64,000 nt of DNA from Roseococcus sp. SYP-B2431 (GTDB lineage: Bacteria > Pseudomonadota > Alphaproteobacteria > Acetobacterales > Acetobacteraceae), in contig NZ_SJXD01000027.1 of NCBI RefSeq assembly GCF_004336745.1, forward strand, positions 248,001 through 312,000. The letters are read 5' to 3'. Position numbers and translations under genes: made by a program. Positions 11-34,496 of this stretch are shown in pieces. A model generated the notes under the pieces. That model was not told where the DNA came from. It searched no databases and saw only the letters and a program-made list of their open reading frames with translations. Each line of letters begins with the position of its first letter. Position 1 is the stretch's first letter.

Positions 11-1606
11 TCACGATTTGGAAACACCCCAGAAGAAGGGCAGCGGGCCTTTGACGACGCCGCTGACGTTGCGGCGCCAGGCCTGATAGCCCAGGAAGAA
101 ACCTGTTGGCGCGTAGACCACGTTTTCGATGGCCTCGCTGTTGATCTTGTCCATCGCCGCCTTCTCCGCGGTCTCGTTGGGCGCCTCGAACCATTCGGTC
201 ACCCCCTGCTCCACCGACGGGACGTTCGGCCAGCCGAACCAGGCGCCGTCGCCATTGGCGCGGACCGCGTTGTAGGCGGCGGGATTTACGCAATCCGCGC
301 CGGCGTGCCAGCTGTGGAACATGCTCCAGCCGCCCTGATTCGGCGGGTTCTTCATGGCGCGGCGCTGGCCCGTGGTGCCCCAGTCGGTCGCGACGAAGTC
401 CACATTCATGCCCATGCGCTTCAGCAGGTCGGCCGTCACGTCGCCCATGGCCTTGGTGATCGGCTGATCCTGTGCCACGACGCAGACCACCGGCTCGTTG
501 CGGTAGCCGCCCTCCTGGAGCAGGCGCTTCGCCAGGTCCATGTTGCGCGGGCCCTTCAGGATGTCCCCGCCCGCCTCGGTGTAGCCGGGCGTGCCGGGCG
601 TGAAGAAGCCGGGCAGCGCCTTCCAGAGATTGTTGTCGTCGCCCACCAGGGCGCGCATGTAGTCCTCTTGGCTCATCGCGGCGAGAACGGCCTGGCGGAT
701 TTTCTGCGAGTTGAACGGCGGGTGCAGGTGGTTCATCCGGAAGGAGCCGATATTGCCCAGCGGATCGGCGATGTCGACCGCGATGTTGCGGTTGCGGCGC
801 AGCACCGGGATGAGGTCGGTGATGGGATTCTCCCACCAATCGACCTCGCCATTCTGCAGCGCGGCCGAGGCCGTCGCCGGATCGGGCATGACGGTCCATT
901 CGAGGCGGTCGACCATGATGCGCTTGCCGCCGGCGAGCCAGCTCGCGGGCTCGTTGCGCGGCACGTATTGGTCGAACTTCTGGAAGACCGCCTTCGCCCC
1001 CGGCACCCATTCGTTGCGCACGAAGCGCATCGGGCCCGAGCCGATGTATTCCGTGATCTGCGTGAAGGGATCGGTGCGCGCGATGCGCTCCGGCATGATG
1101 AAGAGGATGGGCGTGTTGGTCTTGGCCAGCGCGTAGATCAGCTTGGGAAAGCGCGACTTCAGCACCCAGCGGAAGCTGCGGTCGTCCAACGCGACCAGCT
1201 CCTGCTGGATGGCGCGGATCATCTGGCCCATGGGGTCGCGCGGCATCCAGCGGGTGATGGAGGCGACGACGTCCTTCGCGAGCACCGGCTCGCCGTCATG
1301 GAACCTCAGCCCCTCGCGAAGCTTGAAGGTCCAGGTGAGGCCGTCCGACGAGACGGTGTGGCCCTCCACCATCTGCGGCTGCGGCTCGAGCTTGTCGTTC
1401 ACGCCGTAGAGCGTGTCCCATACGGCCGCCGAGGCGTTGCGCACGACGTATTGGGTGCCCCAGATCGGGTCGAAGTTCGCAAGGTTCGCCTGCGGCACGA
1501 AGCGCAGGGTGCGCGCGGCGGCCCCCTGGCTCAGCGCCGGACCGGACAGGCCCGCACTCGCCGCAGCGGCCGCGACGCCGGCCTGTAAAAAGCTTCTACG
1601 CTCCAT
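11..1606 (-). CDS. ABC transporter substrate-binding protein, family 5 (SBP copy 1)
   Basis: This is a 531-residue periplasmic binding protein of the SBP_bac_5 (DppA/OppA-like) family, expected to deliver peptides or related solutes to an ABC importer. The N-terminus has a twin-arginine-type signal (ERRSFLQ, residues 2-8) and an Ala-rich core ending in ALSQ. The early block LRFVPQANLANFDPIW and the later GSGPMRF block are shared with the three paralogues upstream. The ATG at 1606 is preferred because GGGAG lies about 9 nt upstream and the signal peptide begins there; a longer in-frame ATG at 1651 would bury it. It is the last of four tandem paralogues in transcription order. Bases 255-392 are duplicated exactly inside the third paralogue. 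The solute is unknown, and any permease genes would lie beyond the left edge. Confidence 0.9.
   Translation of the reverse strand: MERRSFLQAGVAAAAASAGLSGPALSQGAAARTLRFVPQANLANFDPIWGTQYVVRNASAAVWDTLYGVNDKLEPQPQMVEGHTVSSDGLTWTFKLREGLRFHDGEPVLAKDVVASITRWMPRDPMGQMIRAIQQELVALDDRSFRWVLKSRFPKLIYALAKTNTPILFIMPERIARTDPFTQITEYIGSGPMRFVRNEWVPGAKAVFQKFDQYVPRNEPASWLAGGKRIMVDRLEWTVMPDPATASAALQNGEVDWWENPITDLIPVLRRNRNIAVDIADPLGNIGSFRMNHLHPPFNSQKIRQAVLAAMSQEDYMRALVGDDNNLWKALPGFFTPGTPGYTEAGGDILKGPRNMDLAKRLLQEGGYRNEPVVCVVAQDQPITKAMGDVTADLLKRMGMNVDFVATDWGTTGQRRAMKNPPNQGGWSMFHSWHAGADCVNPAAYNAVRANGDGAWFGWPNVPSVEQGVTEWFEAPNETAEKAAMDKINSEAIENVVYAPTGFFLGYQAWRRNVSGVVKGPLPFFWGVSKS
255..392. repeat. 138-bp donor segment, identical copy at 3577-3714
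   Basis: The 138 bases here are identical to 3577-3714 and both copies are read in the same coding frame. In this gene the segment is at home: it continues the alignment with the other paralogues on both sides. It is therefore the likely source of the patch found in SBP copy 3. Confidence 0.95.
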
Positions 1607-32430: not shown

Positions 32431-32657
32431 ACGATACCGGCCGCCACCGGCCCCGACGTGAGCGGGGTGGACGAGATGTCCCCCCAGGCAACTTCTGTCC
32501 GCGACGCCCCTCCATCGAGGGGTGCGCCCAGCGGCGGCAGCCCGCGGGCCGCGACCGGTGGTGGCGGGACCGGCCCGCGACTGGCGCGGACCGGACAGGG
32601 AAGACGCCGCAAACACGCGCGGGGCCTGGTGGCAGCCGGAAACGGGTCGGGTTGATC
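32431..32657. repeat. Intergenic structured element, copy 1
   Basis: The 465 bp between the convergent SDR and speE genes contain no credible gene. They hold two diverged head-to-tail copies of one element. Copy 1 contains CCCCTC-CATC-GAGGGG (32507-32522). It also contains a hairpin CCGGCCCGCG-ACTGG-CGCGGACCGG (32570-32594, one mismatch), which follows GGTGGTGGCGGGA. The conserved tail CCGCAAACACGCGC lies at 32607-32620. Short open frames through it (65 residues from 32458) are of low complexity and were not called. Confidence 0.75.
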
Positions 32658-32878
32658 GACGTTACCGGCCGCCGCCGGCCGTGACGTGAGCGGGCATCAC
32701 GCCCTGGCGAGATCTTTCCGCAACGCCCCTCCATCGAGGGGAGCACCCGAACGAGGCGGCCCGCAGGCCGCGCCATCCGGTGGCGGGACCGATGCGCGAC
32801 AAGATCGCGCATCGGACTGGAACCTCACCGCGAACACGCGCACCAGGCGCGACGGCGGCCGGAACTCGGGGCGTGATC
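32658..32878. repeat. Intergenic structured element, copy 2
   Basis: This copy aligns with copy 1 along its length. The perfect 16-base hairpin CCCCTCCATCGAGGGG recurs at 32726-32741. After GGTGGCGGGA there is an 11-bp perfect stem, CCGATGCGCGA (32789-32799) with TCGCGCATCGG (32805-32815), again with a 5-base loop. The tail reads CCGCGAACACGCGC and GGCGGCCGGAA as in copy 1. The stem sequence differs from copy 1 but pairing is kept. Confidence 0.75.
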
Positions 32879-32895
32879 GCGTCACGCCCTCAGCA

Positions 32896-33849: not shown

Positions 33850-34317
33850 TCAGCCGATCAGGCCGCGCTTGTGCTCGGCGAGCTGCACGCGCTCGGGCAG
33901 GAAGCCGCGCTTCAGCGCCGGGATCGCCTTGTAGGGATCGCAATCGCCGCAGACGAAGATGTCCAGCGCCGCATAGTCCCGCTCCGGCCAGGTGTGGATC
34001 GACACATGGCTCTCCGCCAGCACCAGCACGCCCGACACGCCGCCATTCGGCGAGAAGTGGTGGAAGTGCCCGTGCAGGATCGTCGCACCCGACGCCAGGG
34101 CGGCCTCGCGCAGCACCGCATCGATATGGCCGGGGTCGTCCAGGTTGGTGGCGCCCCAGAGGTCGATGATCAGATGCGTGCCGGCGTAGCGGACGCCGTT
34201 GCGCTCGACGAAGTAATCCTTCTGTTCCACCAAACCATTGGCAGCCGAAGCATGAGTCGTCTGGGCGTCGCTCGGAAGAAGATCCGAGTCCATCCCCAGT
34301 CGGACGAGAGAGTCCAT
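33850..34317 (-). CDS. speD: S-adenosylmethionine decarboxylase proenzyme
   Basis: This 155-residue protein is the small bacterial type of AdoMet decarboxylase, which supplies the aminopropyl donor for SpeE. The self-processing motif ESHVSIHTWPE is present, and cleavage between E102 and S103 would create the pyruvoyl group. H108 and C123 occupy the usual catalytic places. ATG 34317 starts MDSLVRLGMDSDLL and is about 25 residues longer than the shortest relatives; an upstream ATG at 34371 is possible but less likely. It is followed by speE after a terminator-like hairpin. Confidence 0.95.
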   Translation of the reverse strand: MDSLVRLGMDSDLLPSDAQTTHASAANGLVEQKDYFVERNGVRYAGTHLIIDLWGATNLDDPGHIDAVLREAALASGATILHGHFHHFSPNGGVSGVLVLAESHVSIHTWPERDYAALDIFVCGDCDPYKAIPALKRGFLPERVQLAEHKRGLIG

Positions 34318-34496
34318 TTCGGGTTCCCTTTCCCACCAGCAGATGACCAGGTGTATCGGCTGTGCGGCCACGGCGGCCGTCGGTTCGATCAGGTCAGCGG
34401 AGCGGGCATATGGGGCATGGGGGTCGGGGGGTCAAATGAAAATGCGCCTTTTCGGCCCGAAAAAATCGCGGACCTCCCCCCCACCCCACGCAAGAC

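Follow-up and report, generated by a model that had tools for sequence, protein, structure and literature searches.

Small RNAs derived from 3' UTRs or encoded at the 3' ends of genes lie on the strand of their gene and directly 3' of it, and are structured. 6S RNA has the shape of one long closing helix with a small hairpin on the 3' strand of its middle. REP, BIME and ERIC-type repeats are intergenic, palindromic and tandem. Comparative-genomics surveys (e.g. PMC6429828, PMC8632094) have yielded orphan structured RNA motifs which, as far as the accessible parts of these sources go, are covariation-supported and located in GC-rich intergenic DNA, as is the RNA described here. A term search of the main text of PMC8632094 turned up nothing on speE, spermidine or Acetobacter, and no description of this RNA was met in literature listings and the opening parts of abstracts, subscription papers lying mostly outside reach.

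Tandem units between speE and an SDR gene

Within the window, a stretch of 64,000 nt from Roseococcus sp. SYP-B2431, the gap between the convergent SDR and speE genes contains two diverged tandem copies, 32431-32657 and 32658-32878, as an earlier note on this DNA had stated and as alignment (mean column identity 82%) and a repeat analysis of the window, in which the copies appear as direct-repeat families, confirm. The structured units proper lie slightly inside these boundaries, and represent a structured RNA of ~170-236 nt on the minus strand directly 3' of speE, present here as two units. Both units are among the 10 (alignment A3) from which our covariance model R1 was built, which qualifies their own R1 scores below.

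32437-32640, minus strand: unit 1 (distal), R1 match of 121 bits (R1 also built from it), 83-84% identical to units b and c of the related genome G001
32665-32863, minus strand: unit 2 (speE-proximal), R1 match of 151.7 bits (R1 includes this unit), with the first unit of G001 at 87% identity
32896-33759, minus strand: speE (spermidine synthase), the gene that the RNA follows; open reading frame with plasmid homologues annotated speE, its orthologue adjoining the unit in relatives
33850-34371, minus strand: open reading frame upstream of speE, named by us as presumably speD-like; neighbours speE in loci of the genus

The best plasmid match to speE is from Azospirillum (52.7%), and a plasmid DNA search gave no match to the RNA. 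The sequence features that the earlier note listed are present. CCCCTC-CATC-GAGGGG occurs at 32507-32522 in copy 1 and 32726-32741 in copy 2, and these are the only two exact occurrences of CCCCTCCATCGAGGGG in the 4.7-Mb genome, one per copy; an exact-pattern scan of a genome contig collection for the same hairpin returned 15 stretches in scattered phyla, which were taken as chance. The claim that a variable stem (32570-32594 in copy 1, 32789-32815 in copy 2) differs in sequence yet remains paired in both copies holds on the minus strand but not throughout on the plus strand, where copy 1 has one C.A mismatch; read on the minus strand the same position pairs as U.G, which was the earliest indication of a minus-strand RNA. 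Missed by the note were this strand, the tie to speE and the conserved core of closing helix and three-way junction, and the stem that it stressed is an optional hairpin (P4), absent in 9 of 20 units.

Searching the window against Rfam 15 gave no match above cut-offs save a tRNA, and the units of relatives and the short-form units described below gave none above the gathering score, the sub-threshold matches on units being miRNA-type and others at chance level. This agrees with the suggestion that no described family has this form: a well-supported structured RNA is lacking from Rfam 15.

Architecture, pairing and strand

Minus-strand folds of both copies give one architecture, and separate MFE folds, made one by one without alignment, reproduce it in its main lines in all 18 units folded, out of 20. 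A long, GC-rich closing helix of ~24 pairs, P1/P2, forms both ends of each unit (168 to 236 nt among the 20) and leads to an asymmetric loop (UUY versus U), followed by a three-way junction with helix P3 and the short hairpin P8. This internal loop and junction are conserved (UUYGCGG ... CC-U-GGG ... CCCGCU), and the apical domain above them is variable, with two or three hairpins, namely the optional P4, a long P5 with a YGCG-type loop, and P6.

32835-32862, minus strand: unit 2, 5' arm of closing helix P1/P2 (MFE fold; two-sided changes at 8 of 24 pairs, 11 of 24 invariant)
32665-32688, minus strand: unit 2, 3' arm of P1/P2, on the same basis
32832-32834, minus strand: unit 2, UUY bulge at the three-way junction, unpaired; the two bulge U and the opposite U (32689) are present in 20 of 20 units
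32821-32829 (5' arm) and 32706-32714 (3' arm), minus strand: unit 2, P3 (two-sided changes at 7 of 9 pairs)
32692-32704, minus strand: unit 2, junction hairpin P8, GGG..CCC (98% of cells paired over three modelled pairs)
32787-32817, minus strand: unit 2, optional hairpin P4, in 11 of 20 units (two-sided changes at 9 of 13 pairs)
32747-32780, minus strand: unit 2, hairpin P5 with YGCG-type loop (two-sided changes at 7 of 14 pairs)
32723-32744, minus strand: unit 2, hairpin P6, holding the repeated CATC motif given above as read on the plus strand (two-sided changes at 4 of 8 pairs)
32570-32594, minus strand: unit 1, hairpin P4 (sequence and fold)
32507-32522, minus strand: unit 1, hairpin P6 (sequence and fold)

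Several unpaired bases are conserved (the UUY bulge, the opposite U, the CA before P5 and the GCG of the P5 loop), and argue for more than a plain hairpin. P8 varies in length and is greatly expanded in locus L048. Long hairpin insertions occur within the unit at L043 (1455-1667, in P6) and L048 (1503-1738, in P8) and show which loops tolerate expansion. Protein coding was rejected, since lengths vary between 168 and 236 nt and every frame is closed in at least one of the 20 units.

Whichever strand is folded, both copies do better than their dinucleotide shuffles, with z scores of -5.3 and -4.8 for the minus and -3.8 and -3.3 for the plus strand. In a model-fitted alignment of 20 units from 17 genomes, 96.3% of 1,256 cells are paired and 29 of 64 pairs show two-sided changes; none of 500 shuffles reached any of five measures, and slid structures pair 38-55%. 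Because a model-fitted alignment leans to the structure, we counted again on 16 units aligned with MAFFT from sequence only, taking the structure from unit 2 folded by itself; this gave 90.3% of 1,131 cells paired and two-sided changes at 33 of 78 pairs (0 of 500 shuffles as high; slid structures 41-52%). Alignment A2 comprises 16 units, the third unit of L033 and those of L043, L045 and L048 being left out, and L038 was left out of alignment A7 as its antisense strand would have entered.

On the minus strand the model alignment contains 141 G-U versus 11 A-C cells, and the sequence-only alignment 69 versus 12 (counted only at pairs that are Watson-Crick in unit 2, with the unit 2 row left out). 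A structure derived from the plus strand has 25 G-U and 64 A-C cells on that strand, again favouring the minus strand, and pairs worse (81.8% versus 91.1%). The RNA strand is therefore minus, whichever strand the structure is derived from, and the plus-strand reading is ruled out by the fold scores and the G-U test. The compensatory change and selection on pairing that had been proposed from two copies are thus borne out by both alignments; further copies do exist in other genomes, pairing is kept in these homologues, and covariation and the G-U strand bias support the reading as a structured RNA. We have little doubt that a conserved structured RNA is real.

Distribution and probable short forms

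A DNA search of 60 relatives gave matches in 22 genomes of six genera, those outside the genus being short and weak. Searching the genus with R1 found the RNA in 17 of 21 genomes, with two units in the genome under study (G000), three in G001 and one elsewhere; a second match in G010 (E 0.9) was judged chance-level. The 16 loci read in same-genus relatives all place the unit 3' of speE, on the speE strand, next to a far-side gene that differs between them; with the SDR gene convergent here, this does not fit a 5'-leader riboswitch or attenuator, which would lie upstream of the gene it controls and on the same strand. By the same search the RNA is absent in G011, G013 and G016 though speE is present, indicating that it is dispensable, and the place after speE is taken in G011 and G016 by a short GC hairpin. 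G017 (57% complete) has neither the RNA nor a speE match. A family-wide search with R1 matched 2 of 120 genomes, both of the same genus and our own included, and was insensitive since only 20 candidates per genome were scored.

The proximal unit of G000 is closest to that of G001 (87% identity) and the distal unit to units b and c of G001 (84% and 83%), whereas the two G000 units are 74% identical to each other. The simplest reading is that duplication preceded the split of G000 and G001 and that both units were kept, a reading that would depend mainly on identity because tree support is weak for the distal clade (0.29) and none was printed for the proximal pair. Both duplicated units are still foldable.

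We surveyed stretches of up to 1.5 kb 3' of speE in 87 genomes of other genera and five of other families (G022, G124 and G100 were left out; L113, with 210 bases, and L172, with 453 bases, end at contig ends; G093 has two speE places). With R1, built from units of the genus only, the top three matches among 60 loci were L100 (27.1 bits), L106 (26.6) and L093 (20.8), all three located immediately 3' of speE on the speE strand. Adding these three to the R1 set (model R2) gave a match in L191 of G026, where two tandem ~108-nt units score 33 and 30 bits next to a speE only 66% identical. With model R3, built from L191 and L100, the best match in the G102 genome lies in the same place 3' of speE (E 0.0026), and G023 has a weak match (E 0.07). 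These candidate short forms fold as P1/P2 with two hairpins at the junction, similar to the fold of the genus units. A short form 3' of speE is probable, rather than proven, in four or five of the 87 genomes of other genera, in tandem in G026. The grading reflects that R1 alone scores short forms at 20.8-27 bits and aligns only P1 on L191, that P1 palindromes raise scores on both strands, that L087 (G023) scores alike on both strands and is without P8, and that L106 is weak in R3 (E 0.069, from a scoring of loci with L100 and L113 left out).

Applied to 78 whole genomes, R3 gave only two matches away from speE, in G119 and G099, both near E 0.07 and about chance level. Judged chance or not homologous were these two (L202 in G119, a long palindrome, E 0.069; G099, E 0.068), L198, which lies inside an apparent coding ORF, and the weak candidate L171. 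L202 is centred on a palindrome of ~100 nt, nearly perfect and of extreme predicted fold, and long intergenic palindromes of this kind may be common in this bacterial family. L087 (972-1280, minus strand) has, immediately downstream of speE, a tandem row of three long hairpins of ~100 nt each, with P1-like ends and no second junction hairpin. At L102 (G065, another genus) the signal recognition particle RNA gene (RF00169, 59.3 bits; 1018-1109, minus strand) lies 3' of speE, a different, known ncRNA at the same place.

Candidate function and rival explanations

The explanation that we prefer, with moderate confidence, is a new lineage-specific structured ncRNA, made as two tandem minus-strand units at the 3' end of the speD-speE operon. 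It lies on the same strand as a coding gene, speE, and directly 3' of it, the position expected of 3'-end-encoded sRNAs. No promoter- or terminator-like site, sigma-70-type match or U-run terminator was detected in the window region, and the subclade of this genome lacks a -10-like YTATCTCC before P1, so that the RNA there would be part of the speDE transcript. In G000 a discrete RNA would most likely form the 3' part of that transcript, with the closing helix releasing it from the transcript or protecting it. Some relatives possibly have a promoter of their own immediately ahead of P1. YTATCTCC, which we take to resemble the alphaproteobacterial -10 element, ends ~8 nt before P1 in L041, L042, L044, L045, L046 and L047, and as a -10 would place the transcription start near P1; in L039 the sequence CATCTGCC before P1 is similar. 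L041, L044 and L045 are near-identical in this region, as are L042 and L047, and consequently only about three lineages count. The molecule would act as RNA, with its conserved unpaired bases contacting a protein or a second RNA, and its dose would rise with tandem duplication. Counting against a discrete ncRNA are the negative promoter and terminator search in the window region, the lack of the -10-like sequence in this subclade, its dispensability in three genomes with speE and the simple hairpin of G011 and G016, which fits a terminator role.

That role is the main rival, in which the unit is only the 3' UTR end of the speDE mRNA, a bulky terminator or nuclease barrier that tandem copies reinforce. 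The unit stands directly after speE, in some genomes without room for another terminator, the short GC hairpin takes its place where the RNA is absent, and long palindromes such as L202 occur elsewhere in the bacterial family. The tail after P1 is TTTC or TATC in most units, which also suits termination, and TAAC in unit 2 here and the first G001 unit. In both tandem arrays TAAC thus comes after the first unit (window 32657-32664; L033 1700-1703); perhaps only the last units of arrays end transcripts. For a terminator, however, neither a conserved junction nor conserved unpaired bases nor an apex of two to three hairpins would be required, no U-run terminator was detected in the window region, and at several loci another hairpin already stands between speE and the unit (read by eye). 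We consider this rival possible but on balance unlikely.

A more ambitious version of the ncRNA explanation holds that a new, autonomous RNA class is tied to spermidine synthesis across the bacterial family, either sensing polyamines or their precursors or being remodelled by them, or else titrating an RNA-binding protein, with the number of tandem copies after speE setting its dose. This is speculative and rather improbable; if true, the class would be a dedicated RNA partner of speDE. Slightly less probable still is a sensor acting in cis from the 3' UTR of speDE, which would bind a protein or a metabolite of the polyamine pathway and tune the stability of the speDE mRNA by feedback. The unit is only found beside speE, including the probable short forms of other genera, and its unpaired junction bases are conserved, as a sensor might require, but known riboswitches mostly lie in 5' leaders, the speE link may reflect vertical inheritance only, and three genomes keep speE with the unit missing.

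A DNA-level palindrome, binding protein or forming a cruciform between convergent genes, would account for the long GC-rich inverted repeat, the largely invariant P1 sequence and the convergent genes flanking the element in the window. Such a palindrome is strand-symmetric by nature, yet the exceptions to strict complementarity are mostly minus-strand G-U in both counts above, and this excess makes the explanation very unlikely. Least credible is the REP-like element proposed in the earlier note, or a miniature mobile repeat (MITE) duplicated in place. The element is palindromic, tandem and intergenic, but this explanation is refuted within the searches made, the genome under study and the other 20 of the genus having no dispersed copies and, bar the chance-level G010 match, one locus only.

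The structured RNA is large, with a conserved junction and invariant unpaired bases, is tied to one metabolic operon, is duplicated with both copies foldable, and came to light through a single diverged tandem pair. These traits make it well suited to probing and knock-out, and it raises the question of an RNA regulator of polyamine synthesis in these bacteria. Unlike REP, BIME and ERIC-type repeats, whose intergenic, palindromic and tandem character it shares, it occupies a single locus per genome, is strand-specific and is linked to speE. It resembles 6S RNA in length, in its long closing helix and in the small hairpin on the 3' strand of the middle, but has no open-promoter-like bubble and no match to RF00013 in the units (E<=10) or in 16 relatives' loci (E<=5); the authentic 6S RNA of this genome is encoded elsewhere (G000:C1:475502, 62.6 bits), and 6S RNA was rejected. 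Compared with typical 3'-UTR-derived or 3'-end-encoded sRNAs, the speE-3' RNA, as predicted here from sequence, is larger and more branched, and is like them in being structured, in lying on the same strand as its gene and directly 3' of it, and in possibly having its own promoter in some species.
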